From contig NZ_JABFRA010000034.1 of assembly GCF_013141425.1 (NCBI RefSeq), forward strand, positions 1-52,746: a stretch of 52,746 nucleotides of DNA, given 5' to 3'. This document shows, in pieces, positions 31,685 through 48,071 of the stretch (position 1 is the first letter of the stretch; each line of letters opens with the position of its first letter). The position numbers and the translations under genes were made by a program. Below the pieces are notes generated by a model. That model was not told the DNA's origin and did not search any database. It saw only the letters and a list, made by a program, of their open reading frames with translations. Source of the DNA: Methylotenera sp. (lineage in GTDB: Bacteria; Pseudomonadota; Gammaproteobacteria; Burkholderiales; Methylophilaceae).

Positions 31685-31998
31685 TTCCACACAAAATGTG
31701 TCAGAATTAGAATACCAAAAAGTGTCAATATTCTGTCCTTATTTGTCAAAACTTAGACAAGTAAAGTCAGAATAAAAATAACGTCAATAAAGAAAATATG
31801 TAAATTTTTAGATATATCAAGAGTAAAATTAGTTTTTATTTCCATTAGCTATTGATTTAATTAATTATTTTTATTTTTATTTTATATAAATTTACCATTT
31901 GTTAATTTACATTAAAATCAGGCCTGAATATTGCTTAAATCTATCGAACTTAATATCGAAGTTAATGCAACACAAGGCATGCTACAGGATACCTATCA
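31685..31998. promoter_or_regulatory. 314-bp AT-rich intergenic region ahead of the rpf operon
   Basis: No gene seen. The first 110 bases carry five GTCA-containing elements on the plus strand, starting at 31700, 31724, 31745, 31766 and 31783, four of them followed by an A/T-rich AATA-like stretch. The steps are 24, 21, 21 and 17 bp. The centre is almost pure A/T, and the last 90 bases lead to the GTG start of rpfG. I could not assign a convincing sigma-70 promoter. Confidence 0.4.
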
Positions 31999-33075
31999 GT
32001 GATAAACATAGATTCATTTGATGACTGCTCAGTACTCATTGTTGATGACCAATCAACCAGCAGAGCCATACTTGCGCAAGTAGTAAAAAGCATCAATCCC
32101 AATATCACCGTTGAGGAAAAAAGCAGTCCAGACCAAGCCTTAGATTGGGCGGCTGAACATACGGCTGATTTAGTATTTGTTGATTACTTGATGCCAGAGA
32201 TGAATGGCATTGAATTTGTACGCTTGTTAAAAATGCTACCTCAATACACCTCAGTTCCCGTCATGATGATTACCATCAAGAAAGATTCAGAAACGCGCTA
32301 TGCCGCTTTAGATGCTGGGGTAACTGACTTTATTAACAAACCAGTTGATATGCACGAATGTGTAGCACGCAGTAAAAACTTACTCACCATGCACATACAA
32401 CATATCACGCTACAAAACAGAAGCATTCTGCTTGAAAGCTTGGTAGATGAAGCCACGGCAGATATCAAAGCGCGTGAAAAAGAAACACTGATGCGCCTCG
32501 CCCGCGCGGGTGAACACAAAGATTACGACACAGCCATGCACCTGCAACGCATGTCGCTTTATAGCCGTGCGCTGGCAGATGCCATTGGTTTAAGTGAAGA
32601 AGAAGCAGAAATTATTGAACTGGCCGCACCGTTACATGACATCGGTAAAATTGGTACGCCAGACGTCATTCTGCTAAAAAATGGCTCGTTGGATAATGAA
32701 GAACTCAAAGTAATGCGCAGACACCCGCATGTCGGTTTTAAAATTTTGGAAGATAGCCCTTCAAAATACCTACAAAAGGGTGGTGAAATTGCACTTTCAC
32801 ACCACGAACATTTTGATGGTTCTGGATACCCAAGTGGGCTAATCGGCAACGAAATACCCCTGGCCGCCCGCATAGTGGCGATTGCCGATGTGTTTGACGC
32901 CTTAACAAGCATTCGCCCATACAAAAATGCATGGAGCTTTGATCAAGCGTTTAAATATATATGCGAGGAAAGTGGCAAACACTTTGACCCAGAGTTAGTG
33001 GATGCCATGATAAAAATTCGCGCTGTTTTTGAGAAGATTCACTCAGAAAACTCCACTACGCCACAAGATTTATAG
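31999..33075 (+). CDS. rpfG: RpfG-like response regulator, c-di-GMP phosphodiesterase (REC + HD-GYP)
   Basis: 358 residues. Receiver domain 10-130 with phosphoacceptor Asp62 (LVFVDYLMPEMNG), then an HD-GYP domain about 165-345 with the HD pair His213-Asp214 (PLHDIGKIG), HHEHFDGSGYP (GYP at 276-278) and the later ADVFDALTS. This set of residues fits an active enzyme that hydrolyses c-di-GMP. The domain order, the VDDQST start of the receiver and the neighbours (RpfC- and RpfF-like) match RpfG of Xanthomonas. The start codon is GTG. First gene of a three-gene operon. Confidence 0.93.
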   Translation: MINIDSFDDCSVLIVDDQSTSRAILAQVVKSINPNITVEEKSSPDQALDWAAEHTADLVFVDYLMPEMNGIEFVRLLKMLPQYTSVPVMMITIKKDSETRYAALDAGVTDFINKPVDMHECVARSKNLLTMHIQHITLQNRSILLESLVDEATADIKAREKETLMRLARAGEHKDYDTAMHLQRMSLYSRALADAIGLSEEEAEIIELAAPLHDIGKIGTPDVILLKNGSLDNEELKVMRRHPHVGFKILEDSPSKYLQKGGEIALSHHEHFDGSGYPSGLIGNEIPLAARIVAIADVFDALTSIRPYKNAWSFDQAFKYICEESGKHFDPELVDAMIKIRAVFEKIHSENSTTPQDL

Positions 33076-33090
33076 AGAGTTGCAATTTCA

Positions 33091-33531
33091 ATGAGTGTTA
33101 GCAGCATACGAAGTGCGCCTAAATTTAGGCAAACCGCTTTATTGATTGATGACCAATCAACAGTATTAGATATTCATGCGGCAATTTTGAAGTCACTAAA
33201 AATGAATCTCAAAATTGTCAAAATGACTGACCCAGTTGAAGCGCTAGAATGGATGAAAAATAAACAAGTGGACTTGATTATTACTGATTTTCGGATGTTG
33301 CAAATGAATGGAATGCAATTTGTGCAAGCCATTAAAAGTGCTGGGCATGATTTATTGCGTTCAATTATTGTCGTCACTGCAATTAAAGATAAAAGCGTTC
33401 ATCAAGAATTACTTGCTGCCGGAGCATCGGCCTGCTTAACGAAACCAGCTCAAACACAAGAATTGGCAAACATAGCTAAAACATTGCTAGAAAAAAGCAA
33501 ATACCAATACGGTCTGGCACAAGTGAATTAG
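33091..33531 (+). CDS. Stand-alone receiver-domain protein between rpfG and rpfC
   Basis: 146 residues, a single REC domain with Asp66 (DLIITDFRMLQMNG), Lys in ACLTKPAQ and no output domain. It resembles the RpfG receiver (both open with an [IV]DDQST motif followed by a similar helix), suggesting a tandem duplication. It begins 15 bases after rpfG and ends 8 bases before rpfC, so it is surely co-transcribed. In Xanthomonas the middle position of rpfGHC holds the membrane protein RpfH, so this is a different component. It could act as a phosphate sink or an adaptor. Confidence 0.92.
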   Translation: MSVSSIRSAPKFRQTALLIDDQSTVLDIHAAILKSLKMNLKIVKMTDPVEALEWMKNKQVDLIITDFRMLQMNGMQFVQAIKSAGHDLLRSIIVVTAIKDKSVHQELLAAGASACLTKPAQTQELANIAKTLLEKSKYQYGLAQVN

Positions 33532-33539
33532 GGTAAATC

Positions 33540-35741
33540 ATGCTGAAATCAATTAAAAACTGGTACAAAAATGCTGCCTTCAAATGTGACCCATTAGAAC
33601 TTGAGCAGGCAAATATAAGAATCCCTGCTGCGATTGTAATTTTCGGCTTAGTTACATATAGTCATTTTACTCACGCACTGGGCCAACCAGAAAGAATTGC
33701 ATTTGTCATTCTCTTTGTTTATGCACTCTTTTCACTTCTGCTTATTTCTACCATACTTAATAATAAATTCAACCCTGTTTCCCGTAGATTAGCAGGGGCT
33801 TGGCTTGACATGGTGGCAGTGTCCGTATTTATGTCACTAACAGCGGATATTGGCGTGATGCTAGTAGCGGTGTATTTATGGGTGATTTTTGGTAATGGCT
33901 TTAGATACGGGAAAAAATATCTCTATCATGCACAAGCGCTCAGTCTTGTTGGCTTTATTGTTGCAACTAACTTAAGTCCATACTGGGAAACACACCAAAC
34001 CATCGGTTACAGTCTGATTGCAATGCTTATTGTACTGCCACTTTACGTTGCAAAGCTTATTTCACGTTTACATGATACGACACACAAAGTTGAAATTGAG
34101 CGGCAAAAAGCAGCAGATGCCAGTATCGCCAAAACACAATTTGTTGCCAATATGAGTCATGAAATCCGCACACCTCTCAATGGCATTATTGGCATTAGTA
34201 CACTATTTAAAACAACACCTCTGAATGCAGACCAAAGAGATTTGCTAAAAACACTAGAGAGTTCCTCTAAACTCCTGCTTTCTCTACTTAATAACGTACT
34301 CGATTTTACAAAAATTGAAGAACGTAAATTCACTATTGAAAATGTTGCTTTCTCACCCAAAGAAGCTGTTTATGAAACATTAGAAATATTTCAGGCACAA
34401 GCCAATAGTAAAGGCGTTCAATTAGGCGCCAGTGTTACTGAATCACTAGGCACACTCAACGGTGATGCTTTTGTACTACGTCAGGTGCTGGCTAACTTAT
34501 TAGGCAACGCCATTAAATTTACCCTAGAGGGGAGCGTGACCATTTCGGCCACGGTGTTGCAAGAGGATGCCAAAAACGCAACCGTTCGTTTCGAAGTCGC
34601 CGATACTGGCGTAGGTATAGCAACGGATAAGCAAGATAAAATATTTGAAAGTTTCACTCAAGCCGATTCCTCCACAACACGTAAATTTGGTGGTAGCGGC
34701 TTGGGGCTTACCATTGCTAAACACATGGTAGAAGAGATGGGCAGTACACTAAGCTTTCAAAGTACCGAAGGCGTGGGTAGTCATTTTTGGTTTGTATTAT
34801 CTTTAGAAAAAACGCAGGTAGATGAAGTGCCACTTAAATCAGTCGATCAGAGTGATTCATCCTCAGAAAAACTTACGATTGCATCGATTGAGCCGATTAA
34901 CAAAACGCAATTAAATACGTTTAGTAAATCACTTAAAATTTTGGTTTGTGAAGATGAAAGTACCAACCAAAAAATTATTACCCGCCTGCTTTCTTTGCCA
35001 GGACACCAAGTCGAAATTGTGGTTGATGCCGATGAAATGCTTGATGCGTTAGAGCAACGGAAATTTGACCTAGTAATCACAGATTTGAATATGTCGGGGA
35101 TGAATGGTGCCGACGCGTTAAAACTTTATAGATTTACTAAACCAGATGACCACGACACACGCTTTATTCTATTTACTGCAGATGCTACGTTATCAGCTAG
35201 AGAAATGGCGAGTGATGCTGGTTTTGACGCCTTTTTAACAAAACCAATTGACGCTGCCACATTATTTAGCACGATTGAGCGTATTCTTGACTTAGCGCCT
35301 AATACCGCCACTCAGTGGATGAATAATGCTCTAAATTCACCCGTGAACATCCGATACGCAGCTTTGGATGAGCATCCTGCGCTTGATATGCAAACATTAA
35401 AAGAACTTGAGAAAATTGGCGCTGGGGATGATCTATTTATGCACAGGCTGCTTAGAAATTATTTAAATGATTCTGCAAAACAAATCACTAAAATAAATGA
35501 AGCACTTAAACAAAAACATTTCGGTGCATTGCAAGATTACTGCCATGCTTTAAAAGGCAACAGCTTGAGTGTTGGTGCTACTCAACTCGCAAATACCATA
35601 GAGGTCTTTGGCAAAATAAACTCTTCGACCAATGCTACCCAAACACTTGAAATGTTAGAACATCTCAATAATGATTTCTCTCAACTTACCGCCAGCGTAG
35701 AAGGCTACCTCAGACTTCCAGAGGCAGCCCTAAACAAGTAA
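33540..35741 (+). CDS. rpfC: RpfC-like hybrid histidine kinase, DSF sensor
   Basis: 733 residues, close to the Xanthomonas RpfC length. An N-terminal membrane sensor (five or so helices, about 28-172) includes LWVIFGNGFRYG and LSPYWE, matching the RpfC sensor rather than generic kinases. Then HisKA with His207 (MSHEIRTPLNGIIG), HATPase (N box LLGNAIKF, G boxes ADTGVGI and GGSGLGLTI), a receiver with Asp515 (LVITDLNMSGMNG) and a C-terminal HPt domain with His669 (YCHALKGNSLSVGA). It should pass phosphate from DSF sensing to RpfG. Confidence 0.92.
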   Translation: MLKSIKNWYKNAAFKCDPLELEQANIRIPAAIVIFGLVTYSHFTHALGQPERIAFVILFVYALFSLLLISTILNNKFNPVSRRLAGAWLDMVAVSVFMSLTADIGVMLVAVYLWVIFGNGFRYGKKYLYHAQALSLVGFIVATNLSPYWETHQTIGYSLIAMLIVLPLYVAKLISRLHDTTHKVEIERQKAADASIAKTQFVANMSHEIRTPLNGIIGISTLFKTTPLNADQRDLLKTLESSSKLLLSLLNNVLDFTKIEERKFTIENVAFSPKEAVYETLEIFQAQANSKGVQLGASVTESLGTLNGDAFVLRQVLANLLGNAIKFTLEGSVTISATVLQEDAKNATVRFEVADTGVGIATDKQDKIFESFTQADSSTTRKFGGSGLGLTIAKHMVEEMGSTLSFQSTEGVGSHFWFVLSLEKTQVDEVPLKSVDQSDSSSEKLTIASIEPINKTQLNTFSKSLKILVCEDESTNQKIITRLLSLPGHQVEIVVDADEMLDALEQRKFDLVITDLNMSGMNGADALKLYRFTKPDDHDTRFILFTADATLSAREMASDAGFDAFLTKPIDAATLFSTIERILDLAPNTATQWMNNALNSPVNIRYAALDEHPALDMQTLKELEKIGAGDDLFMHRLLRNYLNDSAKQITKINEALKQKHFGALQDYCHALKGNSLSVGATQLANTIEVFGKINSSTNATQTLEMLEHLNNDFSQLTASVEGYLRLPEAALNK

Positions 35742-35747
35742 CTCATC

Positions 35748-36647
35748 TTAAGCGGATTGCTTTTCATGCACGTGTGCCACATCTGCATTCACTTTAGAGT
35801 TTTGCGCACGCACCAAACGTTCCATTACTTTTAAGTTGCGTTCGTCTAAACGCAATGCAGCATCCACCCAAATTTCAGTGATATCAAAAAGCTCTTCTGC
35901 TGTTAATGGATTAACGCGTTGTTTAGCTCGGTTAATTGCTTGGAAGGAATTCAATGATTTATGATTCTTTTTAATCCAATTATTGAGTGCATACTCGCCC
36001 TGACCATCTTCTGCCAGTACATCGACCACGCCCATTTGATACAACTCTTCACCTGTATAGATTTTACCTGATCGCACCATTTTTTCAGCAACGTTCATAC
36101 CAACTTTACGTGATAAGAAACTCAACGCCCCCATACCTGGGAATAAATTAAATAACACTTCAGGTAAACCCATTACTGCACTTTTTTCAGCTATCAGCAC
36201 ATGAGCGGATAAGGCAGATTCAAAACCACCACCCATCGCTTGACCTTGTACTAAAGCAACAGTAGTTATAGGAGCTTCCATGCTATAAAAAGTCCATAAA
36301 TTTTCGACGCAAAGCTTTGCATATTCAAATAAATGATCTCTATCTTGCGCTTGAATTAACTGTCTAAATACGGACAAATCACCACCCAAATTAAACACTC
36401 CTTCAATATTTGATGCTAAAACCAAATAATTAACTTGTTGTGGCACACCTTGAGAAATTATTCTCCCTTTTGAATTTTGCAAATAGGTGTGATGTTGCAA
36501 TAAATCGTTTAAGCAAATTTTATTAAAACAAGGACGTGGTTCGGGGTTCATGATAGACCACATCACACCGAATTCACTATCAAAACGTGTGTTGATTTGT
36601 TGAAAATTTGAGATGCTAAATTTATTAAAATCTACAATAGTGTTCAT
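35748..36647 (-). CDS. rpfF: RpfF-like DSF synthase (crotonase family)
   Basis: 299 residues. Crotonase fold with the RpfF hallmarks: MNPEPRPCFN near the N-terminus, and the two catalytic glutamates Glu143 (GGGFESAL) and Glu163 (GLPEVLFNLFPGMGA), separated by 20 residues as in Xanthomonas (Glu141 and Glu161). RpfF dehydrates and hydrolyses 3-hydroxyacyl-ACP to give a cis-2-unsaturated fatty-acid signal. It is convergent with rpfC, with six bases between the stops and no terminator. A GGGG ribosome site lies six bases before the ATG. Confidence 0.93.
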   Translation of the reverse strand: MNTIVDFNKFSISNFQQINTRFDSEFGVMWSIMNPEPRPCFNKICLNDLLQHHTYLQNSKGRIISQGVPQQVNYLVLASNIEGVFNLGGDLSVFRQLIQAQDRDHLFEYAKLCVENLWTFYSMEAPITTVALVQGQAMGGGFESALSAHVLIAEKSAVMGLPEVLFNLFPGMGALSFLSRKVGMNVAEKMVRSGKIYTGEELYQMGVVDVLAEDGQGEYALNNWIKKNHKSLNSFQAINRAKQRVNPLTAEELFDITEIWVDAALRLDERNLKVMERLVRAQNSKVNADVAHVHEKQSA

Positions 36648-36700
36648 ACTAAACCCCTTAAATGATTAAAGTTATTGAATAAAAAGAACTAACAATTGCA

Positions 36701-36729
36701 ACTATAGGCTTAAAAAATACACCTCTCAA
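36701..36729 (-). promoter_or_regulatory. Sigma-70 promoter of rpfF
   Basis: Minus strand: TTGAGA (36724-36729), 17-bp spacer, TATAGT (36701-36706), with a start near 36694 and about 47 bases of leader. The remaining 160 bases up to fadL contain a second ATTGCAAC copy (the first overlaps this promoter) and AT-rich DNA in which I could not place a fadL promoter. Confidence 0.6.
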
Positions 36730-36889
36730 GCAAATGATTTTATTTAACTACAAATTTTCCTCAGCATATGTTGGAAAATTGCAACACCTTATGATTTCAT
36801 CAAATTGTTACAAACATGTATCAAAAAGTATCTTGATGTGTTATTTTTTTGTTTTCTGTACCTTTTAACTAAAGAAAATCGAATCCATT

Positions 36890-38185
36890 ATGAAAAAATT
36901 ATTGTTATCATTTGCGATGTTGTCTAGCCCAATCGCCAGTCAGGCAGCGGGTTTTGCGTTAATTGAGCAAAGCGCCAGTGGCATGGGAAATGCTTTTGCA
37001 GGAGGTGCTGCCGCCGCTGAAGATGCCAGCACGATATTCTTTAACCCCGCTGGCATGACGTATATTCAAGGCACACAGATTGTGGGTGCGATTCATTTGA
37101 TTAAACCGAATGCGGAATTTAATGATCAGGGCTCTATACCTGCAAACATTAATTTTGCGCAAACAGCTTTTAGACCTATAGGTAGCGAGGGTCCCAACGC
37201 AGGCGACCTAGCTTTTGTGCCTAATTTTTATTACAAACGCGACTTAACCGACACCATAAAATTCGGCTTAGGCTTAAATGCACCCTTTGGCCTTAAAACG
37301 GAATATGACGATAAGTGGATTGGTCGCTTTCAAGCGGATAAATCTGAGGTCAAAACCATCAACATCAACCCTTCAATTGCTTTCAAACTCAATGACCAGC
37401 TTTCGCTAGGTTTGGGCGTTTCTGTCATGCGCGCAGAGGCTACACTTACACGCGCTGTTAACTTTGGTCCGTTTGGAGAAGGTTCGGTAAAAGTAAAAGG
37501 TGACGACTGGGGATTTGGTGTGAACTTGGGCGCGATTTACCAAGTAACGGCAGACACCAGAATTGGCGTGGCTTATCGCTCTAAGGTTGAACAGCATTTA
37601 GATGGCAATGTTAAGTTTAGCCGTCCTATTGGGTTGCCTGGCCCACTTGTGGCAGCGACACCAAATGGTGGAGTCAAGGCTGATTTAACGTTACCTGAAA
37701 ATTTTTCTGTCAGCGCTTTTAGCCACGTAAATGACAAATGGGACTTGATGGGCGATGTGACCTGGACACGCTGGAGCCAGTTTAAAGAATTAGCCGTTTA
37801 TCGTGACGGTGGAAAATTGCTAACGAATACCATTGAAAATTGGGAGAACACGCTACGTTACTCTATTGGTGCAAGTTATCAGTATAACGACACACTTAAA
37901 TTACGCGCGGGTTTGGCGTTTGACGAAGAAGCGATTAATGATAAATTTCGCACTGCGCGTATTCCGGGTAATGATAGAAAATGGCTCTCATTAGGTGTCA
38001 GTTATCAATTAACGCCTGCGTCTAAATTTGATCTAGGTTATTCGCATCTATTTATCAACGATGCAAAAGTTGACGACAATCAAACCGCTGTTAGTCCTAC
38101 TGCACCATTTAACAGCGGAAGATTACGCGGCAGTTTTGATGGTAGCGTCGACATTTTAAGCGCTCAATACACGCATAATTTCTAA
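36890..38185 (+). CDS. FadL/TodX-family outer membrane long-chain fatty acid channel
   Basis: 431 residues with a signal peptide (MKKLLLSFAMLSSPIASQAAG). The N-terminal hatch contains GFALIEQSASGMGNAFAGG and the conserved STIFFNPAGMT (NPA box), followed by alternating beta strands to a terminal aromatic (THNF), as in a 14-strand barrel. FadL proteins let hydrophobic molecules, classically long-chain fatty acids, pass into the outer membrane. It is divergent from rpfF, which makes a fatty-acid signal. No beta-oxidation genes are in the window. Confidence 0.9.
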   Translation: MKKLLLSFAMLSSPIASQAAGFALIEQSASGMGNAFAGGAAAAEDASTIFFNPAGMTYIQGTQIVGAIHLIKPNAEFNDQGSIPANINFAQTAFRPIGSEGPNAGDLAFVPNFYYKRDLTDTIKFGLGLNAPFGLKTEYDDKWIGRFQADKSEVKTININPSIAFKLNDQLSLGLGVSVMRAEATLTRAVNFGPFGEGSVKVKGDDWGFGVNLGAIYQVTADTRIGVAYRSKVEQHLDGNVKFSRPIGLPGPLVAATPNGGVKADLTLPENFSVSAFSHVNDKWDLMGDVTWTRWSQFKELAVYRDGGKLLTNTIENWENTLRYSIGASYQYNDTLKLRAGLAFDEEAINDKFRTARIPGNDRKWLSLGVSYQLTPASKFDLGYSHLFINDAKVDDNQTAVSPTAPFNSGRLRGSFDGSVDILSAQYTHNF

Positions 38186-38202
38186 TAACAATTAGTAGTT
38201 AC

Positions 38203-38230
38203 AACAAAGCCCACTTTGGTGGGCTTTGTT
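38203..38230 (+). terminator. Terminator after the fadL-like gene
   Basis: A perfect 12-bp stem AACAAAGCCCAC with GTGGGCTTTGTT around a TTTG loop. Confidence 0.9.
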
Positions 38231-38346
38231 ATTTACAGCGGCCTAACTCGCAAAGAAACTTACTTCTAAATACAGTTGTAATTCTTTTTGCATTTAATTG
38301 TTATACTGATTACTGCAAGCACATCCGACTTTTTGGAGGACGCAAA

Positions 38347-38574
38347 ATGAAAAAACTATTTTATATCGACTACCCTCAAGAGCACATTGAAGGCCAAACA
38401 CACAAGTATCGCTGTACTTACTGCAAAGAAGAAACAACCATTATCAACGGCAGACTAGAAGGACATCTGCCTACGTGTGAATATCGAATTAAGCTAGAGA
38501 GCGCTGGATACGAGCCTGATCAGGCGAAATCTGTAAAAGATCCGGTTTCGCACGATGCGGATGATATTGACTAA
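38347..38574 (+). CDS. Small hypothetical protein with a C-C-H-C zinc-finger-like pattern
   Basis: 75 residues, not recognised. The core YRCTYCKEETTI is followed by GHLPTCEYR, giving CxxC and HxxxxC ligands spaced like a small zinc finger. The N-terminus is basic and the C-terminus acidic (DADDID). It has an excellent TTGGAGGA ribosome site eight bases before the ATG and stands alone. No signal peptide. Confidence 0.8.
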   Translation: MKKLFYIDYPQEHIEGQTHKYRCTYCKEETTIINGRLEGHLPTCEYRIKLESAGYEPDQAKSVKDPVSHDADDID

Positions 38575-38610
38575 ATTTATCCACATCCGAATTACCCGTT
38601 GTTAATTAAT

Positions 38611-39624
38611 TCAATGATTTTTTAGATCACTAATTTTTTCTGCTATAACTTCTGCTTGTAGCTGGCTTATCGGTAAAATTTGCGCTTTCAATTGCTCAAG
38701 GGCGCTTAAATCACTTTGTGTATAAGCAATTTTGGATAATGCAATCATTGCATCTAAGTGACGGGTATTAAGTTGTTGAGCTTTAGTGAAATTTTCTTTG
38801 GCTTGCGTAATTCTACTCTCACCTTCTTCTGCTAGCCCTAAAAAATACCATGCATCCGCCGACCTTGGCTCTTGTCCTGTCCAGGCTTGAGCAATTTCTT
38901 TTAAGGAAGCCCATTCGTGATTCTGGTAGGGAATCACTATTTGCATAAAATAAGGCCTTTGTTCTAAGGGTAAGGCCCAAAATGGTATATCATTTGTGTT
39001 CAGTGAAATTATATCAGGGGCATCAAATAAGCGTTTTATCCACTCTACAGGCAAACTATAAAAATAGCCTTGGGAACCCGGGCTTTTAAAACTGGTAATT
39101 CCAATTAAATTAAATTGCTGGTCAAATAATGCTCCACCACTTGAGCCTAGCCCAAAAGCAGCATTTGTACGAATAATTACACTGTCATCTAAAGGGTATG
39201 AACCTTTAACATAACCAAATGAAGGTTGTGGAACATTGTTGCCGACTGGGTAACCTAGACTAAATACCTCTTCTTCGTATTGCAAATTTAAACTATCACG
39301 CATGGCAACTGGCTTAAATGGCAAACCATCAAATTTCAGCAGACATAAATCATGTTTCCAATCCGCCTTCAGCGCAATAGGTCTATGGCTATCACGATAC
39401 TTTGAAATGCTGGCACCTTTCGCATTTGCCAGCACATGACAATTGGTCGCCACGTATTCTTTGCTTACGACCACGCCAGAACCGCTGCCAGTGTTGCCAT
39501 TTGGCAGTTCCACCGATACTTGTACTAGTGAATCATTTAGGGCCAATATTTCGACAATGCCTGGTTGTGCATTTGCATTTGAAACATAGAGAGTAGCGAT
39601 GGCAAGCAGAAAATAATTTTTCAT
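38611..39624 (-). CDS. Secreted trypsin-like serine protease with C-terminal TPR
   Basis: 337 residues with a signal peptide (LLAIATLYVSNANA). The chymotrypsin-fold protease domain (about 25-210) has a complete triad: His63 (ATNCHVLANA), Asp92 (KHDLCLLKF) and Ser162 (GLGSSGGALFD). It resembles HtrA-like S1C proteases but lacks a PDZ domain; residues about 235-320 form TPR helices instead (WYFLGLAEEGESRITQAKENFTKA). It is expected in the periplasm. It lies just downstream of the c-di-GMP-riboswitch gene, but a strong terminator separates them. Confidence 0.85.
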   Translation of the reverse strand: MKNYFLLAIATLYVSNANAQPGIVEILALNDSLVQVSVELPNGNTGSGSGVVVSKEYVATNCHVLANAKGASISKYRDSHRPIALKADWKHDLCLLKFDGLPFKPVAMRDSLNLQYEEEVFSLGYPVGNNVPQPSFGYVKGSYPLDDSVIIRTNAAFGLGSSGGALFDQQFNLIGITSFKSPGSQGYFYSLPVEWIKRLFDAPDIISLNTNDIPFWALPLEQRPYFMQIVIPYQNHEWASLKEIAQAWTGQEPRSADAWYFLGLAEEGESRITQAKENFTKAQQLNTRHLDAMIALSKIAYTQSDLSALEQLKAQILPISQLQAEVIAEKISDLKNH

Positions 39625-39763
39625 CTTTCAATTCCAATTTGAATTTAAGTAAACTGACTGCACTAATTGCATCGTCAGAATACGGCATTCAAATTGGCTA
39701 AAGGTTCAGCATTCTTGTAATATTTAACCATCAGACTATGGATAAACTTTTTCTTACAAATAG

Positions 39764-39799
39764 AAAAAGCCTCTAAAGAATGTTCTTTAGAGGCTTTTT
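39764..39799 (-). terminator. Long perfect hairpin terminator after the DUF4189-like gene
   Basis: 17-bp perfect stem (39764-39780 with 39783-39799) and T-rich ends on both strands. It would stop the riboswitch-controlled message before the protease gene. Confidence 0.88.
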
Positions 39800-39863
39800 C
39801 ATTAATACTGATTTATTTACATCGTCCGTGCAGGTCCAGAGCTTAATTGAAAACTCGCCTATT

Positions 39864-40340
39864 TTAGAGCCTTGTTTCTTGCGTATTGTTTTGAATATTG
39901 ATTGGAGAATCCACTTTCTTGAAGCCCTTAAAGCCTTTGAAATCTTCCCAATTTTTAATATCAGTTTCGTTGCAGTTTTGATAGCTTTCACTGCATGCAA
40001 AATACGCGGCTTGTTTAGCTTCATTGGCATCAAAGTAACCTAATGCCCAAGCACAATGATCACCACAGGCAACTGCACCATAGCCAGGCACGTTAGATTC
40101 CTCAACTACAACACAATTTTTTGCTAAGTTTTCTAGCCCACTCTTTTTCGCTTGTTCACGGCAACCTGCTATTGCGTTTTTATTCGCTTCCTTTTGTGTC
40201 TCAAAATTGTATGAGCTATAAAATGTTGCTTGCGAGTGCCCTTTTACAATGGCAACGGATGAAAAAGCTAAACTTTCAAACGAAAGTAGTGCAAAGATAA
40301 AACCGAGAATGCTGTTAAATAAAAATTTATATTGAGTCAT
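39864..40340 (-). CDS. Secreted DUF4189-like protein under a c-di-GMP riboswitch
   Basis: 158 residues with a signal peptide (FNSILGFIFALLSFESLAFS). The mature part has repeated Ala/Cys blocks (AIAGCREQ, NCVVVEES, YGAVACGDHCAWALGY, AAYFACSESYQNC) with six or so cysteines, the layout of DUF4189 proteins, small secreted domains of unknown role. A good AGGGGA ribosome site precedes the ATG. The long leader (from about 40610) contains a c-di-GMP-I riboswitch, so production should follow c-di-GMP levels. Family assignment is from memory and tentative; the ORF and its secretion are solid. Confidence 0.8.
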   Translation of the reverse strand: MTQYKFLFNSILGFIFALLSFESLAFSSVAIVKGHSQATFYSSYNFETQKEANKNAIAGCREQAKKSGLENLAKNCVVVEESNVPGYGAVACGDHCAWALGYFDANEAKQAAYFACSESYQNCNETDIKNWEDFKGFKGFKKVDSPINIQNNTQETRL

Positions 40341-40459
40341 TTTTAATCCCCTATCTAATTAATTTCTAATTAGTAGATTTTCAACCTAAAACGTCCATTC
40401 AACTCTGAGCAATAAACTACAAACTCACAACGGAACATAAGTTATAAATATCAAATCCA

Positions 40460-40478
40460 CCCTTGTTAATAACAAGGG
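40460..40478 (-). repeat. 9-bp inverted repeat in the riboswitch leader
   Basis: CCCTTGTTA and TAACAAGGG around one base. On the minus strand it follows a UUUUU stretch and is not followed by a U run, so it is not a classical terminator. It sits between the aptamer and the start codon and may belong to the expression platform. Confidence 0.4.
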
Positions 40479-40524
40479 AAAAACCAAAAACATTGGGAGG
40501 CGAGCCGAGTACATTTACTTTTGC

Positions 40525-40612
40525 GGTAAACGGCGGTTCCGCTATCATAGGCACTTGGCCCTTAGATCGGAAACTTTGCGTCCCTGCTTTTCAACAGGTT
40601 TGCCCTTAAACT
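40525..40612 (-). ncRNA. Cyclic di-GMP-I (GEMM) riboswitch
   Basis: Read on the minus strand, the RNA carries the conserved GEMM core in order: AGGGCAAACC, a hairpin CCUGUU-GAAA-AGCAGG with the GAAA tetraloop, GGACGCAAAG, a second arm with the tetraloop-receptor-like UCUAAGGG and CCUAUGA, and the closing AUAGCGGAACCGCC. The orientation and position (185 bases before the ATG) put it in the 5' leader of the DUF4189-like gene. Ends are approximate. TTGTCA at 40667-40672 (minus) is a possible -35 element. A related dinucleotide such as cGAMP is a less likely ligand. Confidence 0.88.
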
Positions 40613-40794
40613 ACGACTACACTTTACTGGTAAATTTCCCTGAAATCAAGTAATCGTGCGACTAGCTGACAAACGGCACAATTTTCTAAATAAGCGGTCA
40701 TTCTGCTCATTTTAAGTTAACGTTTTTAACCCGACCAGCCATTCCAAAGTCAATTGCTTTCATCTTGTCACGTTATCAAACCTACCAAATTGTT

Positions 40795-40971
40795 TTATGC
40801 GCTTCTACTTGCTCTAAATCCTTTAGTTTCTTGATTTACCATCGCTTCAACATCTTGATAAGGAAATGGAAACCATACGGCCATATCATCTAGCAACAAG
40901 CTTAATGCTCTATTATTTTTTTGGCCGTTAACAACTTTACTATTCTTAGCGATTACTTTTTTACTAATCAT
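40795..40971 (-). CDS. Small ORF of 58 residues between the riboswitch and pgaD
   Basis: Short frame: it begins MISKKVIAKNSKVVNGQ, has a hydrophobic/aromatic centre (LLLDDMAVWFPFPYQDVEAM) and a basic end (GFRASRSA). Support: AAAGGA lies eight bases before the ATG, and the frame uses the codons of its neighbours. No domain recognised and no signal peptide. It could be a small regulator, an immunity-like peptide, or chance. Confidence 0.5.
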   Translation of the reverse strand: MISKKVIAKNSKVVNGQKNNRALSLLLDDMAVWFPFPYQDVEAMVNQETKGFRASRSA

Positions 40972-41211
40972 TTTTATGATCCTTTACGACTTTTAAACAG
41001 TTAGATTAATAATTACAATAATTATTAATATGCAAAGTCTGTGCCAACACCAATAAGCTGCAAGCTTAAATATAACTCATTGATTTAATGTGATTTAAAT
41101 ATAGTTTATTTAAAAGATTCGTTGAAAAATGATAACTAACGTTGAGTTGTCGTCATTATTTATGGGGTGATAAATACATTTAGGCTGCCGTTTAATAAAG
41201 CGATTGCCGAA

Positions 41212-41249
41212 AAAATAAAGGACATAGAAATATCTATGCCCCTTATTTT
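41212..41249 (-). terminator. Terminator of the pga operon
   Basis: 17-base arms (41212-41228 and 41233-41249). The two mismatches become G-U pairs only in minus-strand RNA, and a U-rich tail (UUUAUUUUUU) follows on that strand. This identifies it as the end of pgaABCD. The rest of the 309-bp gap 40972-41280 is AT-rich, with nothing else recognised. Confidence 0.85.
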
Positions 41250-41280
41250 AGGTGACGCCTTAAATTACCGAAGGATTAAT

Positions 41281-41736
41281 TTACATGGTCAATTTAGAGT
41301 CTGCCACGCTAGCCAACTTGCCATTATCAAAAAAATGTACGATTACTGATTTTTGTTTTCTAAGCTCGGTCAACTGTGATTCTTGTAGCTCAAATACTTT
41401 TGCGACTTCTCCAACTGGCACAGTGGTGTAGCCATTTCTGCGAATTGAATCTTTAAAACGATAACGCTCTATTTTAGCCCAGCCTATAAGCACGATGCTG
41501 ATGATGACTACGATGGCTGAATATAAACCTAATTTTTCAACTATACCCGCATATCCATTTAGCTCCACCATTTGCAGGTGAAACAATTCCACCCCTACCC
41601 ACCATGCAACGAGAGTAATAAAAGGTAACCATAAATAGATATATAACAACCAAAACAAAAAAGTAATCGAACTCCATCCATATCGATGCGCTTGTGATTG
41701 CAATTCGGGTTTTTCAATGATTAATGTTCTAGTCAT
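41281..41736 (-). CDS. pgaD: PgaD, c-di-GMP-responsive subunit of PNAG synthase
   Basis: 151 residues with two membrane helices (about 26-52 and 68-92), as in PgaD, and a cytoplasmic tail. In E. coli, PgaD and PgaC together bind c-di-GMP to switch on poly-beta-1,6-N-acetylglucosamine synthesis. It overlaps the end of pgaC by eight bases, so expression is coupled. Confidence 0.88.
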   Translation of the reverse strand: MTRTLIIEKPELQSQAHRYGWSSITFLFWLLYIYLWLPFITLVAWWVGVELFHLQMVELNGYAGIVEKLGLYSAIVVIISIVLIGWAKIERYRFKDSIRRNGYTTVPVGEVAKVFELQESQLTELRKQKSVIVHFFDNGKLASVADSKLTM

Positions 41737-43006
41737 GTTGTTGTCCTAATTTTTGATGAATCCCGCGATCCGGGCTCGTCCAAGTTGCACGTTTATTTCG
41801 ATCTTTAAATATTGCAGCTGGCAAACCAACTACAGTAGTAGCGGCAGTGAGCATCCAGAACAACATGGGATACCAAATCATCCAATAATAGTATCGGCGG
41901 ATTTTTAGCTCATAGCGACTATCAATAAATAAACTTAAGGCAAATTGCAAAAGGCAAGTCATGGCAAGTAACACACCATTCCATTCTGGGACAATGGTAT
42001 TAATATGAAGGTAGGCGGGTAAGGTTATAAACAATCCTAGACCCCACAGCACGAAAATAGCACACATTACATAAGCCCAAATAATACTAATTACCAACTC
42101 TATATAAACGGGCCACATGCGGCGTTTTTTTATGTTTGTGAAAATATCCTTAAATTTCAGCAGCACTTCTGCACCGCCCTGTGCCCAACGTACGCGCTGT
42201 TTCCAAAGTCCTTTTAACGTTTCTGGCATGAGTATCCAACAAAGGGCATTGGGCTCGTATCGCACATCATAATAGTGTGTTTGCATTTTCCAACTGATGT
42301 CGATATCCTCCGTCACCATATTGGTACTCCAGTACCCAACTTCGTGTAATGCAGATTTACGGAATGCGGCGACTACGCCAGAAACTGTAAACACCCGACC
42401 ATAAACACGTTGGGCACGCTTAATAAGCCCAATAACGGATGAAAACTCGCCTACTTGCAATTTGCCAAGCATCGTTGAACGATTACGAATTCTTGGATTA
42501 CCAGTCACCGCGCCCACTCTTGAACTTGAGATAAAATGCCGCATCATCCAGGTAATGCAATTGGCATCAAGCACAGCGTCGCCATCAATACACACAAGAT
42601 ACTCACTGGTAGACAACATAGCGCCCATTGTTAGGGCCATTGCCTTGCCCTGATTACTCGCCAATTGAACTACTTTGACCTTAGAATGCTTAGAGGCAAT
42701 ATCTTGGATAATGTCGGCCGTGTTATCACTGCTTCCATCGTTAATAGCAATAATGTCGTAGTTTGGGTAGTTCAAATCAAGCAATGCACCTATGGTTTCA
42801 TAGGCATTTTCACCTTCATTAAAACATGGCACCAAAACACTGACCTGCGGATACTCTGGCAATATTGGTGGAGAATCATAGAGTGGCTCACCCCGTTCTT
42901 TGCTGAAATAAAAATAGAGTGCACCCGCCATCCACAAATAAGCCATAAAAAGTGGGTAGTAAAATGCGAAGCCAAGTAGCCAATCAGTTATATTTTGGTA
43001 CCACAT
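41729..43006 (-). CDS. pgaC: PgaC, poly-N-acetylglucosamine synthase catalytic subunit
   Basis: 425 residues, processive GT2 glycosyltransferase. N-terminal membrane helices, then the catalytic domain with VLVPCFNEGENAYETI, AINDGSSDNT, Asp141/Asp143 (CIDGDAVLD), Glu233-Asp234 (VTEDIDISWK) and the QxxRW motif at 270-274 (QRVRW). C-terminal helices follow. Polymerises UDP-GlcNAc and exports the chain through the inner membrane. Confidence 0.95.
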   Translation of the reverse strand: MWYQNITDWLLGFAFYYPLFMAYLWMAGALYFYFSKERGEPLYDSPPILPEYPQVSVLVPCFNEGENAYETIGALLDLNYPNYDIIAINDGSSDNTADIIQDIASKHSKVKVVQLASNQGKAMALTMGAMLSTSEYLVCIDGDAVLDANCITWMMRHFISSSRVGAVTGNPRIRNRSTMLGKLQVGEFSSVIGLIKRAQRVYGRVFTVSGVVAAFRKSALHEVGYWSTNMVTEDIDISWKMQTHYYDVRYEPNALCWILMPETLKGLWKQRVRWAQGGAEVLLKFKDIFTNIKKRRMWPVYIELVISIIWAYVMCAIFVLWGLGLFITLPAYLHINTIVPEWNGVLLAMTCLLQFALSLFIDSRYELKIRRYYYWMIWYPMLFWMLTAATTVVGLPAAIFKDRNKRATWTSPDRGIHQKLGQQHD

Positions 43007-43045
43007 CTTAAATTATGTCCTTATTTTTCATATCAGCGCCAACCC

Positions 43046-45013
43046 TTATTTATTTTCTTTAGGTAAATAGGGGAAATTTCGTGACGAAATATATGGGCGA
43101 ATGACCTCTATTTCGGGTTGATTAATTAAAAAGTTATCTGGATAGTAAGCCATGTGTTTAGCGCCAGCCTCCGCAAGCACTTGCAATTCACGCTTTAATG
43201 TTTCTGTATTGATAGCACGCTTTAATTTCCAATCCCTTGCCTGTAGCTCAAAAACTGTTTTTTGTAACCCGCTATTCGTCAGCTTTACTTGTTTTACTAA
43301 AGACTTTAACCATGCCTCTGGATTTACAACATTTTCCATAAATGGCATAGCCATTACGACGGTGTAATCATAAGCCGAGATAAAATTTGGGTAATTTTGA
43401 TTTAACCAACGTTCACTATCTACATTTAGCAATGCCGATGCGTATAAATTACGCGCTGTTTTTAATTCCGGCTGATATTGTCTGAGTTCTTTGGCTAAAT
43501 CCAATGTAAAGTCAGTAAGGTGCTGGCTTTTTAATGTTGTTAACTTTTTAGCTTCATCAGAGTTTTGATTGATTTCTGCAATTGTGAGGCCAAGCAGTTT
43601 AAAATCTTTCAAATAGACAGCTCTTGCATATTCGCTATCATCTTCATCTTCTGAAAACACCGCATCATCATGAAAAAGAACTCCATTGAACTTAGTATAA
43701 GCACCTAAATCACTGTATATCTCTTTGACAATTTGTCTCGCTTCTGACGAAAAGGGTGTTAAGCGCTTGTAGGCAGCTTTATCAACCAAGGATTGTGCTG
43801 AAACCACTTGTAGCAAGTTCTGTTTTTGCTTGTCTTTTAACTCAAAAGCAAGTACTGGCATCCAGGCATAGACCTTAACGTTCGCACGTGTCATCAGTTG
43901 CCACGCCACACGACCAAACAGATCTGCACGCACGGCAACATGACGATTGGGAAAATAAACCGCTTCGGCTACACCGTCGCCATTTTTATCTGAAAACGCC
44001 TGTAAATAAATCGTTGTTGGCGCTAATGATTTCACACGATCTAAAAGTAAATCTAGATTTTTAGCCGTTTGTTCAGCACTGTCATCATATACATAATCTA
44101 AATCGATATGCATGATGCGCTGTTTATCCAGAACTGGCTCATGATTTTCAATCTCAGCCAGTCGCATTTCTGTAGGATTGCCAACGATTAAGAACCGTCC
44201 AACATGCATTAGGTTATTTGCATGTGCCTGCTCACTTTCACTTAAGTTTAGCATAATTGGCATGCCTGCTTGACTTGCAGCTTCTGATGCAATGTCATTG
44301 TGCCAGCCATAAGGCCACACCATCACCCGGGGAGATTTTCCCGTAATACTCTGAATGACAGCATTATTTTTATTTAAATCTTGTTTAATGCGATTACGAT
44401 AGTTTTCATGCAATTCATAGGTCTGGCTAGCTGTGTCATATTGCAAAGTAACGGCCGCCGCTGTCTGATTGCCTTGTGGATTCGCCTGAACCCCTCGATG
44501 CAAATCAAAACTGTGTGATGCAAATTCGATCAAACCAGAATCTGACATTTCTTTTATTTGTGCACTTGATAAAAAATGTTCACGTGGCACAAGTTCATCA
44601 CCATAGTGTACATTTCCACCTGCTTTAACTTCCAACCAACTGCCGACTAAAGCTGAAACTGCTGGATAGTTATATAACTTAAGCAAAGGAAATACACGTG
44701 AATACAAACTTTCGTAACCATCATCAAATGTCAGCAAAACTGGCTTGCTAGGTAATTGTTTTTTACCAGATGACGCATCCAGTATGTCGTTAATACTTAT
44801 GGGATGGTAGCCATGCGCTTGCATCCAAGCAAAATGGCGTGCAAGGTTTTTCGTTGAGATGGTGGTGGTTTCTTGCTCTAAATCACCATCGACATTGTCT
44901 CTAACGTCATGATAACTAAACACCTCAAACGTATTATTTGCATCAATAGTTGATGCTGCGCAAGCGCAGGCATTTAACATTAGCAAAATTATAAAAATTA
45001 TTTTTTTGATCAT
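43046..45013 (-). CDS. pgaB: PgaB, PNAG N-deacetylase with C-terminal glycoside-hydrolase-like domain
   Basis: 655 residues. A signal sequence with a lipobox-like LNAC (Cys16) is followed by a CE4 deacetylase domain (metal motif LTFDDGY at 94-100, later FASHSFDLHRG) and a C-terminal domain of about 300 residues of the PgaB/BcsG-associated GHL13 type (HIDLDYVYDDS..QTAKNLDLLLDRV). Partial deacetylation is needed for export. It begins one base after the pgaA stop codon. Confidence 0.94.
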   Translation of the reverse strand: MIKKIIFIILLMLNACACAASTIDANNTFEVFSYHDVRDNVDGDLEQETTTISTKNLARHFAWMQAHGYHPISINDILDASSGKKQLPSKPVLLTFDDGYESLYSRVFPLLKLYNYPAVSALVGSWLEVKAGGNVHYGDELVPREHFLSSAQIKEMSDSGLIEFASHSFDLHRGVQANPQGNQTAAAVTLQYDTASQTYELHENYRNRIKQDLNKNNAVIQSITGKSPRVMVWPYGWHNDIASEAASQAGMPIMLNLSESEQAHANNLMHVGRFLIVGNPTEMRLAEIENHEPVLDKQRIMHIDLDYVYDDSAEQTAKNLDLLLDRVKSLAPTTIYLQAFSDKNGDGVAEAVYFPNRHVAVRADLFGRVAWQLMTRANVKVYAWMPVLAFELKDKQKQNLLQVVSAQSLVDKAAYKRLTPFSSEARQIVKEIYSDLGAYTKFNGVLFHDDAVFSEDEDDSEYARAVYLKDFKLLGLTIAEINQNSDEAKKLTTLKSQHLTDFTLDLAKELRQYQPELKTARNLYASALLNVDSERWLNQNYPNFISAYDYTVVMAMPFMENVVNPEAWLKSLVKQVKLTNSGLQKTVFELQARDWKLKRAINTETLKRELQVLAEAGAKHMAYYPDNFLINQPEIEVIRPYISSRNFPYLPKENK

Positions 45014-45014
45014 T

Positions 45015-47471
45015 TTAAAAAAGTAGGTTTAACCTAGTAAAAAATTGGGTTGAATACTCATTTGTTCCGTCGTATGGGTGGCGACTTCGAGTTATGCCAT
45101 AGTTAACTTCAAAACTGTCGTCCAGTTTGAAACCTTGCTCATAACTTACCATCCAAGTGGAATCCGAACCAAAATTCTTCTGCCAATAATTTCCAGCGCC
45201 AACTTGCAGGCGGTGATTAAAGGAACGGTCATAGCGACGCCATAATATCCATTCATTATCAAGCACTATGCTAGTGTCTAAATCACGCTCTGGATTAAAG
45301 TAGATAGCATCATTTTTACTGTTACTAGAGGCGTCCACACGTAAATGTGTCGTCAATTTATAGTGTGGCTGTGTGATCAACCGCCTATCAAATTGTAAAT
45401 TTAGTGATTTTCGGTGGTTACCATCACTTACATTCAAATACCCGACACCTGCAGATGCACGGGTTAAATCACTCCATCGATATTGAGTATTCGCACTTAA
45501 TAAGTCACCACTTACACCTGTTTTTAAACCCCGAAGCGGCATTTGTGTAGAATTAGCCTCTAATGAGGTAGCGAAAGACCAATGATCATTTAATCGATAG
45601 TCTGCTGTAACTGCCGCAGTAACTCCGATTTTTGATAAACTCGCCTGACTTATTTCGCCCGTTAAACGCCAATCTCGTTTAGTGTATTCCACACCGACAC
45701 CTGGATAACTGACATTACCCGAACCTTCAACAAAGGTGGCATGGTTATATTTTGCGCTTGCAAAAGCCCGATAGTTATAATTAATTGGGCTAGAATACAA
45801 AACAGCATTCAAGCCTTGAGTGCGGCTACCAAACGTAGATCCGGAAGATTGACTGCTAAATCCATCTAGACTAAATTGACGTTTATTATGCAGTAGCCAA
45901 CGTCGCTCAAGTGCCTGTACAGAAGCATTCTCTGGATACTCTTTTACTATTGGCAAAATTAGATTTTCTGCAACTTGCCAATCTTGCAAATCCAAAAGTG
46001 TTTCAGCCAAATTAATTTTAGCTTTCAATAGATCTGGGTAATCCTGACCAATCTCAGAAAATCGCTTTTCCGCTAGCTCAGCCCAACCACGCCAGCGCCA
46101 AATTTCACCTAATGCCATTCTGACATCATTACTCATCGGGCCAATATTATTTAACGCCTGAAACTGCCTTTCAGCACTTGCTAAATCGTCACCATAAGCA
46201 CTTAAATAGAAGGATTTACTATCAATAATCAACTTGTTCTCATCTGCACGAATGACAGGGTTTTTAGGCCGTTGCCTATAGGCGGCAGTATTTATGGATA
46301 AATTCTCAATAAGTGTTCTGGCATCCTCAAACCGCTCCAATTCAACCAAGGCATAAAACTTGGAAAATTTAGTTTCATTATTGTCAGGCACTTTGGCGAG
46401 TGAAGCGTCATAAATTTTGATGGCTTGTTCAGGCATCCGTTTATATAAATAGGCATCGCCAGCTGCATTTAAAACATAAGCAGGCATATCTACGTTTGAA
46501 TGAAGTAAATACTGATAATGCGTGATAACCTCTTGCATACGATACCTGTCGCGCAAGGCTAGCATCCGGTCAAATATTAAATTCTGGTTAATACCTGACT
46601 TTAAGTCCAGCTTATTCCAGTCGCATTTACAAGCTTCGTCTAACTTAACTAATGCTTTATCTGTATCAGCAAATCTTTCACTAGGATTTTTCGGGCTGTA
46701 ATGACCCCATGAAATATAATTCGCAGCACTGTCGTTGTTGATTTTATCGATTTCATCTTGATTAATCACATTTGGGTACTGCTCTGCTAATTTTAATGCC
46801 TGTTGAATAGCCCCGGCTTCTCGTGTTGCCTTAACCAATGCACGAACCGCATCAAGATCCTGATGATTTAACACTAATAAACGAGTGTTTGCATCAATCA
46901 CCATTACGGGCTGCTTAGATTGCTGACCCAAATATGATACGGCACGTAAAACATCAACATTATTTGGGTGCTGATGACGTAATTTCATCAAAAGTGACTC
47001 GGCATCGACAAATTTCTCAGTATCGATGAGCACAAGAACTTTCCCTAGTACCGAATCGAGATTACTCGGCTCAAGTAAAATTAGCTGCTCATAATATGCA
47101 ATTGCGGTGCTGTACTGACTAGTATTTCTTGCTGCCTTTGCTAACGCGTTCAAGCAATAGTTAGGTATTGCTTTTGCATCCATACCGCTTGCTTCGGCTA
47201 GGGCTTCTCGGTCTTTTTTTGCCCAAGTAAGAATCACAATGTAATCAGCTTTAATGCCGACATCCTTTGGCGCATCCTTTACCAGAGTCATAAGCGCTGG
47301 TATCGCCACATCAAACTTACCATCACGCGCATATTGCAATGCCGCTTGACGTCGCTCACCCAAACTTAATTTTTCACTAATAGTTTCTGCCGCCATGGCT
47401 GGCACAGCTAAAGCTAAGACTAGCAACAATAGCGTGGTTATTTTAATAATTGCATACTTAATAAATTGCAA
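45015..47471 (-). CDS. pgaA: PgaA, outer membrane PNAG export porin with TPR
   Basis: 818 residues. Signal peptide (LLLLVLALAVPAMAAE), TPR superhelix about 35-500, then a C-terminal beta-barrel from about 530, ending in an aromatic-flanked strand (FFTRLNLLF). First gene of pgaABCD. The start codon is a TTG at 47471 with GAAGG nine bases upstream; no in-frame ATG is near. Confidence 0.92.
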   Translation of the reverse strand: MQFIKYAIIKITTLLLLVLALAVPAMAAETISEKLSLGERRQAALQYARDGKFDVAIPALMTLVKDAPKDVGIKADYIVILTWAKKDREALAEASGMDAKAIPNYCLNALAKAARNTSQYSTAIAYYEQLILLEPSNLDSVLGKVLVLIDTEKFVDAESLLMKLRHQHPNNVDVLRAVSYLGQQSKQPVMVIDANTRLLVLNHQDLDAVRALVKATREAGAIQQALKLAEQYPNVINQDEIDKINNDSAANYISWGHYSPKNPSERFADTDKALVKLDEACKCDWNKLDLKSGINQNLIFDRMLALRDRYRMQEVITHYQYLLHSNVDMPAYVLNAAGDAYLYKRMPEQAIKIYDASLAKVPDNNETKFSKFYALVELERFEDARTLIENLSINTAAYRQRPKNPVIRADENKLIIDSKSFYLSAYGDDLASAERQFQALNNIGPMSNDVRMALGEIWRWRGWAELAEKRFSEIGQDYPDLLKAKINLAETLLDLQDWQVAENLILPIVKEYPENASVQALERRWLLHNKRQFSLDGFSSQSSGSTFGSRTQGLNAVLYSSPINYNYRAFASAKYNHATFVEGSGNVSYPGVGVEYTKRDWRLTGEISQASLSKIGVTAAVTADYRLNDHWSFATSLEANSTQMPLRGLKTGVSGDLLSANTQYRWSDLTRASAGVGYLNVSDGNHRKSLNLQFDRRLITQPHYKLTTHLRVDASSNSKNDAIYFNPERDLDTSIVLDNEWILWRRYDRSFNHRLQVGAGNYWQKNFGSDSTWMVSYEQGFKLDDSFEVNYGITRSRHPYDGTNEYSTQFFTRLNLLF

Positions 47472-47549
47472 ATCTGTACACCTTCAAACGAATAAATAAC
47501 AATATTCAAATTTCAACTTCACCATAATTTTGGTTTTAGTTTAAAATAA

Positions 47550-47565
47550 AGCATATTTCGTGCCA
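47550..47565 (-). promoter_or_regulatory. Candidate sigma-54 promoter upstream of pgaABCD
   Basis: Minus strand TGGCACGAAATATGCT matches the -24/-12 consensus (TGGCACG-N4-TTGCW) at all fixed positions except one T. The GG and GC doublets are twelve bases apart, as required. The start would be near 47539, about 68 bases before the pgaA TTG. No clear enhancer site was found. Confidence 0.5.
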
Positions 47566-47630
47566 ATAATTAATGAGTCATGCAGAAAGCAACGATGGCT
47601 TGAGATAATTACTACTAATCAAAAATAAAA

Positions 47631-47658
47631 ACGACCTAGAGAATTCTCTCTAGGTCGT
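47631..47658 (-). terminator. Original terminator of the tRNA gene, now stranded beside the element
   Basis: A perfect 12-bp stem (ACGACCTAGAGA and its complement, loop ATTC), followed on the minus strand by TTTTTATTTTTG. It lies four bases beyond the left 50-bp repeat, where a tRNA terminator would have been before insertion. Confidence 0.75.
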
Positions 47659-47661
47659 ACT

Positions 47662-47711
47662 AATTGGTGGCCCCTCTGTGAGTCGAACACAGCACCAACG
47701 GATTATGAGTC
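47662..47711. repeat. Left attachment-site repeat (tRNA 3' relic)
   Basis: 50 bp identical to 52674-52723. On the minus strand it holds the tRNA from the anticodon stem to CCA (47665-47711), but the 5' half is missing and the sequence diverges right after the repeat. It is therefore a displaced tRNA end, not a gene. Confidence 0.93.
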
Positions 47712-47817
47712 GGGCAAATAAATAAATCACCATAACTCCACAATAAACTAAAGCAACTGAATCAATGAGTTGGTTATTGTCGATTGTTCCCACCTTCTTT
47801 AGATTTTTTGACTCAAG

Positions 47818-47835
47818 TGTGCCAGAAGTGTGCCA
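47818..47835 (+). repeat. Pair of TGTGCCA heptamers, left arm
   Basis: TGTGCCA at 47818-47824 and 47829-47835, 11 bp start to start. The same pair with the same spacing occurs twice in the right arm. Probable integrase arm-binding sites. Confidence 0.6.
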
Positions 47836-47870
47836 ACTTCAAGACTAGAATTAATCGCCCGCCGACACAT

Positions 47871-47940: not shown

Positions 47941-48071
47941 TTTATGGACATGTCCACTGATACACATGCCTCTCCGCCTGAGCGCTTCATGTGACTTAAC
48001 TAACTATGAATACCACCGATGAATTAACGCGTCTGTAGCGCTTGCCGTAGCTTCAGATGAAGCCTCTCATG

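Follow-up and report, generated by a model that had tools for sequence, protein, structure and literature searches.

Genes and features of the locus

We analysed a 52,746-nucleotide stretch of DNA from the methanol user Methylotenera sp. of the family Methylophilaceae (assembly GCF_013141425.1), hereafter the window, which is a single contig (NZ_JABFRA010000034.1; G000:C52 in our set) of a 142-contig, 2.48-Mb genome. It harbors a gene cluster of the diffusible signal factor (DSF) type, in which rpfG, a lone receiver gene and rpfC are convergent with rpfF, followed by fadL, a trypsin-like gene, a gene under a cyclic di-GMP (c-di-GMP) riboswitch and pgaDCBA, the genes for the sticky biofilm sugar poly-N-acetylglucosamine (PNAG). 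An earlier note on this DNA had named RpfF, RpfC, RpfG, FadL, the riboswitch and PgaABCD, and all of these are indeed present, with matches to Pfam, NCBIfam and Rfam models and with intact motifs. The rpf, pga and riboswitch genes all lie inside one variable slot (31685..47661) between a conserved xoxF-TPR block and tRNA-Met, an observation that is new here. The window was compared with 150 genomes of its family and with 399 genomes of its order.

The gene rpfG (31999..33075, + strand; Pfam Response_reg and HD_5) encodes a receiver joined to an HD-GYP domain, a predicted c-di-GMP phosphodiesterase (PDE) whose nearest solved HD-GYP relative is 4mcw. Its HDxGK and HHExxDGxGYP motifs are intact, as they are in all 23 RpfG proteins read, which come from clusters of the kind that we call class A (rpfG and rpfC convergent with rpfF, and fadL beside rpfF). 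The receiver-only gene between rpfG and rpfC (33091..33531, +; Pfam Response_reg), on which the earlier note is silent, adjoins 17 of the 23 rpfG genes read and is absent from 6; its product is 71-87% identical in 16 relatives and could serve RpfC as a phosphate sink or as an additional output. RpfC (33540..35741, +) is a hybrid histidine kinase with a membrane input domain and with Pfam HisKA, HATPase, REC and Hpt domains. Its REC domain matches the solved REC domain of RpfC (3m6m_D), and the phospho-sites H207, D515 and H669 are kept in 44/44 aligned sequences (n=44 for each of the RpfF and RpfC alignments; the RpfF fragments shorter than 250 aa of G029 and G142, and the RpfC of G116, were excluded). 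In a crude hydropathy scan of the first 180 residues about three separate segments passed, where the Xanthomonas-type criterion is five transmembrane helices.

The convergent gene rpfF (35748..36647, -) encodes a crotonase-family protein predicted to be the DSF synthase. It scores above the cut-off of the broader NCBIfam model PRK08788 (391.6 vs 177) and below that of the RpfF equivalog NF053515 (236.4 vs 550). The best solved relative is RpfF itself (3m6m, E 4.5e-59), and the top solved relatives are RpfF-type enzymes. The catalytic Glu pair, E143/E163, is invariant in 44/44 aligned sequences and aligns with its counterpart in 3m6m, taken here to be Glu141/Glu161. Beside rpfF stands a fadL-type gene for an outer-membrane fatty-acid channel (36890..38185, +; Pfam Toluene_X/FadL, E 2.6e-112).

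The juxtamembrane sensor segment of the window RpfC reads CDPLELEQA (residues 16-24; 33585..33611, +), and the motif C-[DN]-x-x-E-L-E-Q stands ahead of the first membrane segment in 23/23 readable class-A N-termini, 19 of which have exactly CDPLELEQ. In the corresponding segment of Xanthomonas campestris RpfC, Arg15, Asp17, Ser18, Glu19 and Gln22 are described as essential for DSF sensing, the abstract of that report giving six essential residues (PMC5391125). In the window protein Asp17 is retained, position 15 is Lys and position 18 is Pro, and the Glu and Gln match only upon a shift of one residue; the essential Arg15 and Ser18 are thus both missing. The segment therefore appears to be conserved in the lineage yet is not the Xanthomonas one, and the ligand or its contacts may differ.

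The four pga genes are adjacent on the minus strand and form one operon: pgaD (41281..41736), pgaC for the PNAG synthase (41729..43006), pgaB for the PNAG deacetylase (43046..45013) and pgaA for the PNAG export porin (45015..47471). All four products resemble those of E. coli pgaABCD in that they pass the cut-offs of the PNAG-operon equivalogs, a likeness by family models: PgaA 639 vs 366.65 (TIGR03939), PgaB 808.3 vs 321.9 (TIGR03938), PgaC 620.9 vs 422.3 (TIGR03937) and PgaD 117.1 vs 31.45 (TIGR03940). PgaD also matches its Pfam family, and a PDB sequence search with it gave no match. Activation of PgaCD by c-di-GMP has been described, with binding details given as unsolved (PMC8461298). By family knowledge, PgaCD and the riboswitch would both be c-di-GMP-dependent devices. 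Base composition is no guide to a foreign origin of pga, with a GC content of 40.5% in pga, 40.2% in rpf and 42.4% in window positions 1-31684.

The c-di-GMP-I riboswitch aptamer (40529..40614, -) is full-length like those of other GEMM-I riboswitches, and scores 75.6 bits (RF01051, gathering score 35); no second c-di-GMP-I riboswitch was found in the window genome. It precedes the gene of P0005 (39864..40340, -), a 158-aa putative secreted protein with an N-terminal hydrophobic stretch judged by eye. No Pfam family matched P0005 at 1e-3, DUF4189 being a sub-threshold likeness (E 0.0054, 17.7 bits vs 25), and a single-sequence AlphaFold model had a mean predicted local distance difference test score of only 47.8. 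Unlike the aptamer, the small protein that it controls was found in this genome alone of the 150. We also tested the sequence for a translational ON switch that would act by release of the Shine-Dalgarno region. An aptamer strand can pair with that region at -11.9 kcal/mol, a value reached by 27/1000 tail shuffles and 89/1000 aptamer shuffles; holding the aptamer folded hardly freed the region (mean unpaired 0.29 to 0.33), and no terminator-like site was found between aptamer and gene. This complementarity is suggestive only.

The rpf clusters, pga and riboswitches in relatives

Among the 150 family genomes, rpfF occurs in 45, the RpfC input domain in 44, PgaD in 9 and the riboswitch in 32. 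Close RpfF proteins are found in nine named loci, of which seven are from Methylotenera, one from a Methylophilaceae bacterium and one from a Proteobacteria bacterium. In 43/46 rpfF places rpfC is adjacent and convergent on the same contig, always on the opposite strand and with its input domain within 1.9 kb. The three exceptions are G116, where a contig end cuts rpfC off, G029, which has an rpfF fragment only, and G142, whose two genes sit on separate contigs. Class A comprises 23 places with rpfG and two further clusters (G143 and G116) that hit a contig end before rpfG, and fadL stands beside rpfF in 23 of these 25, the remaining two ending near there. Class B, which is rpfC and rpfF alone, comprises 21 clusters (L113, L114, L117, L127, L160-L175, L177), 18 of them in genus g19. 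Neither rpfG nor, beside rpfF, fadL was found within the stretches read around these 21 clusters, and rpfG elsewhere in their genomes was not looked for. Identity of class-B proteins is 40-44% for RpfF (the G142 fragment aside) and 30-35% for RpfC; G096 carries both classes. Pfam matches to the class-B neighbors, read for 3 of the 21, include aconitase B and DUF2914 (G048, G075), a ketosynthase (G048) and a type IV secretion-like gene (G096).

The genes past fadL vary from one relative to the next among those read (G131, G090, G102, G149, G068, G022). An exception is the trypsin-like gene (38611..39624, -; Pfam Trypsin_2), which the earlier note did not mention and of which an 83% identical copy occupies the same place beside fadL in G131 (L108).

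The linkage of rpf to pga and to the riboswitch was found in the window alone. PgaD and rpfF occur together in 7 family genomes and lie within 5 kb of each other in one, the window, where they are 4.7 kb apart. They are 709 kb apart in G048; in G090, which has two PgaD, rpfF is at least 758 kb away on the contig as written, or about 408 kb if the contig is circular; and in the other four genomes they are on different contigs. The riboswitch and rpfF are shared by 9 genomes against 9.6 expected, that is, without association, and are near each other in 1/9, the window, at 3.9 kb, the nearest other pair on one contig being 172 kb apart. In the order, PgaD is present in 27 genomes (25 above cut-off) and rpfF in 72, with 7 sharing both by a by-eye count (G000, G172, G336, G380, G395, G424, G495) against about 4.9 expected; the genes are within 5 kb of each other in the window only, about 480 kb apart in G395 and on different contigs in the other five. 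Thus, a linked rpf-riboswitch-pga block was not found in any relative among the 150 family genomes, nor a linked rpf-pga pair in any among the 399 of the order.

Riboswitches of the relatives precede mixed genes, as judged by eye at 30 of 58 places including that of the window, and no other Pga gene or P0005-like gene was seen behind them at these 30. At seven loci (L016-L019, L021, L022, L028) the riboswitch precedes a similar protein of about 470-500 aa, which by eye is globin-coupled-cyclase-like.

The slot between the TPR gene and tRNA-Met

The frame of the slot is the same among relatives and its filling is different. In 14 relatives that have no rpf cluster (13 of genus g1, and G029 of g9), the TPR gene retains its neighbors for BrkB, a peptidase and a PQQ dehydrogenase, the last of which (Pfam PQQ in the window) we take to be xoxF. 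In 9 of these 14, rpoD was found across the interval, with tRNA-Met in 8. The contig of the window ends in tRNA-Met, and rpoD presumably lies beyond it. In the slot of G029, which yielded neither rpfC nor rpfG, a piece of rpfF remains (L195, 12054-12386; query residues 1-112), a sign of loss. The TPR gene itself was considered as a part of the circuit and rejected, being present in 137/150 genomes with or without rpf.

Twelve intervals, 115.5 kb in total, are bounded on both sides, and 8 of them hold genes with GGDEF, EAL or HD-GYP domains. These genes number 13: three intervals have rpfG, five have a gene for a GGDEF protein of about 510 aa, three have an HD-GYP gene (a fragment in one case), and G090 has both a GGDEF and a GGDEF-EAL gene. 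Among the relatives without rpf, L186-L189, L196 and L197 have the slot occupied by GGDEF and/or HD-GYP genes. As controls, 40 evenly spaced 20-kb pieces from five relatives (800 kb) held 10 c-di-GMP turnover genes, from which about 1.4 would be expected in the slot, and random pieces of the same lengths as the intervals (the longest trimmed to 20 kb) gave 8 positive pieces in 0/5000 draws.

A small minus-strand open frame (about 40815-40970), which lies between the riboswitch and pgaD, gave no match in a Pfam search. Next to the slot is a 5-kb integrative element at tRNA-Met (47662-52723), also not mentioned in the earlier note, which is flanked by 50-bp perfect direct repeats (47662-47711 and 52674-52723), encodes a tyrosine integrase (51342-52415), a Mob_Pre protein (49033-49779) and a zinc-ribbon protein, and of which at most 2% matches any plasmid record. 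The idea that pga is cargo of this mobile element was rejected, since the repeats enclose the 5-kb element, which lies beyond pgaA.

Readings of the neighborhood

By analogy with studied systems, RpfF would make a cis-2-unsaturated fatty acid, and RpfC would sense it and, by way of its REC and Hpt domains, relay phosphate to RpfG; the lone receiver may be a second recipient. RpfG would then degrade c-di-GMP. An effect of RpfG on PNAG or on the riboswitch is possible because all of them use c-di-GMP, though it would be diluted by many other c-di-GMP enzymes. The window genome has 18 GGDEF matches (17 above cut-off), 14 EAL and 7 HD_5, some within one protein, and RpfG is therefore not its sole c-di-GMP enzyme; that a single RpfG sets the whole c-di-GMP pool is unlikely, and local effects are possible.

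The reading that we favor, with a probability of about 0.7, is that a complete Xanthomonas-type DSF cluster occupies a variable slot, and that pga and the riboswitch gene arrived there independently as ordinary c-di-GMP outputs. The earlier note had instead proposed that DSF, via RpfG, lowers c-di-GMP, shuts off PgaCD and alters the riboswitch-controlled gene, the genes being neighbors because they are functionally joined. Much of what this proposal was built on stands: the rpf core is complete and conserved with fadL adjacent, the other parts are intact, and control of c-di-GMP by RpfCG (PMC4504480) and activation of PgaCD by c-di-GMP (PMC8461298) have been described. What did not hold is one conserved circuit. 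The synteny check across Methylophilaceae had been set beforehand as the refuting test, and the block does not recur in it: the rpf core recurs alone, with pga and riboswitches elsewhere in the relatives. The riboswitch, moreover, is unassociated with rpf, the overlap of pga and rpfF in the order is near expectation, the genome has many other c-di-GMP domains, and a diffusible second messenger requires no gene linkage. Such a circuit is thus possible, is not backed by the comparative evidence, and seems to us unlikely.

Several observations weigh against independent arrival. The gene families of the slot, counted as families to reduce the weight of shared descent, are enriched for c-di-GMP genes (5/68 vs 10/634 in the controls, p 0.010; p 0.037 without rpfG), and this modest excess means that the neighborhood may not be pure chance. 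The presence of rpfF in 7/9 family PgaD genomes (naive p 0.003, uncorrected for phylogeny) hints that the two are functionally connected though unlinked, which would suit the circuit as well; in genus g1, that of the window, 3/3 PgaD genomes carry rpfF, and 8/24 genomes of the genus are rpfF-positive. Several family assemblies are also fragmented, with pga or riboswitches partly on other contigs, so that gaps could mask linkage; PgaD and rpfF are on different contigs in 4/6 of the other family genomes and 5/6 of the other order genomes that have both.

The contents of the slot suggest a further possibility, namely that selection has made it a place where c-di-GMP genes gather and that rpf, riboswitch and pga are one outcome of a recurrent process. 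The 8/12 positive intervals, with their 13 genes of five families that include GGDEF and HD-GYP genes in relatives without rpf, speak for it; but the orthologous copies are not independent, the family-level excess is modest, the enrichment test was partly post hoc, set up after some hits were known, and four intervals (G006, G084, G122, G029) hold none. We regard it as rather doubtful. A bolder form, in which the Methylotenera slot (xoxF-TPR to tRNA-Met-rpoD) gathers c-di-GMP modules, the DSF cluster, with its particular sensor motif and additional receiver, alternating with GGDEF/HD-GYP genes, and here with PNAG and riboswitch outputs added would make a locally assembled signal-to-biofilm unit, we consider improbable. 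Very unlikely, in our judgment, is that RpfG works mainly via protein contacts and not via the c-di-GMP pool, which would leave PNAG and the riboswitch outside its downstream targets. For Lysobacter, control of antibiotic production by RpfG is described as apparently independent of its PDE activity (PMC8463545), and the receiver in the operon and the 21 class-B rpfC-rpfF pairs without adjacent rpfG suggest other outputs, but the HD-GYP residues intact in 23/23 RpfG argue for a retained PDE function.

The DSF cluster can also be compared with known systems. In Xanthomonas, rpfF is convergent with rpfGHC (PMC4504480), and the window cluster is similar in gene order, convergence, domain architecture and the RpfF catalytic Glu pair. 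It differs in having the lone receiver where Xanthomonas has rpfH, in the absence of rpfB beside rpfF and in the adjoining fadL. The same review lists Methylobacillus, Methylophaga, Thiobacillus and Leptospirillum with an rpfF-rpfG-rpfC cluster, with no mention of pga, a riboswitch or a chromosomal slot in the passage concerned, and Methylobacillus is also included among DSF turnover bacteria (PMC9040794). The rpf core had thus already been noted in methylotrophs. Of the four genera, one presumably belongs to the same family as the host of the window. As for the full arrangement, among the matches listed, titles and abstract openings on DSF in methylotrophs, Methylotenera quorum sensing or c-di-GMP riboswitches in Methylotenera showed no study of it, and literature searches found nothing joining Methylophilaceae with 'diffusible signal factor' or rpfF with Methylophilus, a negative that extends no further than these searches.

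The attractive circuit was over-read, given that the linkage was found in one genome and that a diffusible messenger needs none. The useful remainder is a clean DSF cluster that is widely shared in Methylotenera and related genera. Worth following are its lone receiver, its sensor motif and the variable slot around it: from the sensor motif, conserved yet unlike that of Xanthomonas, a distinct DSF-family signal is predicted, and the defined slot permits the presence and absence of quorum sensing to be compared between near relatives.

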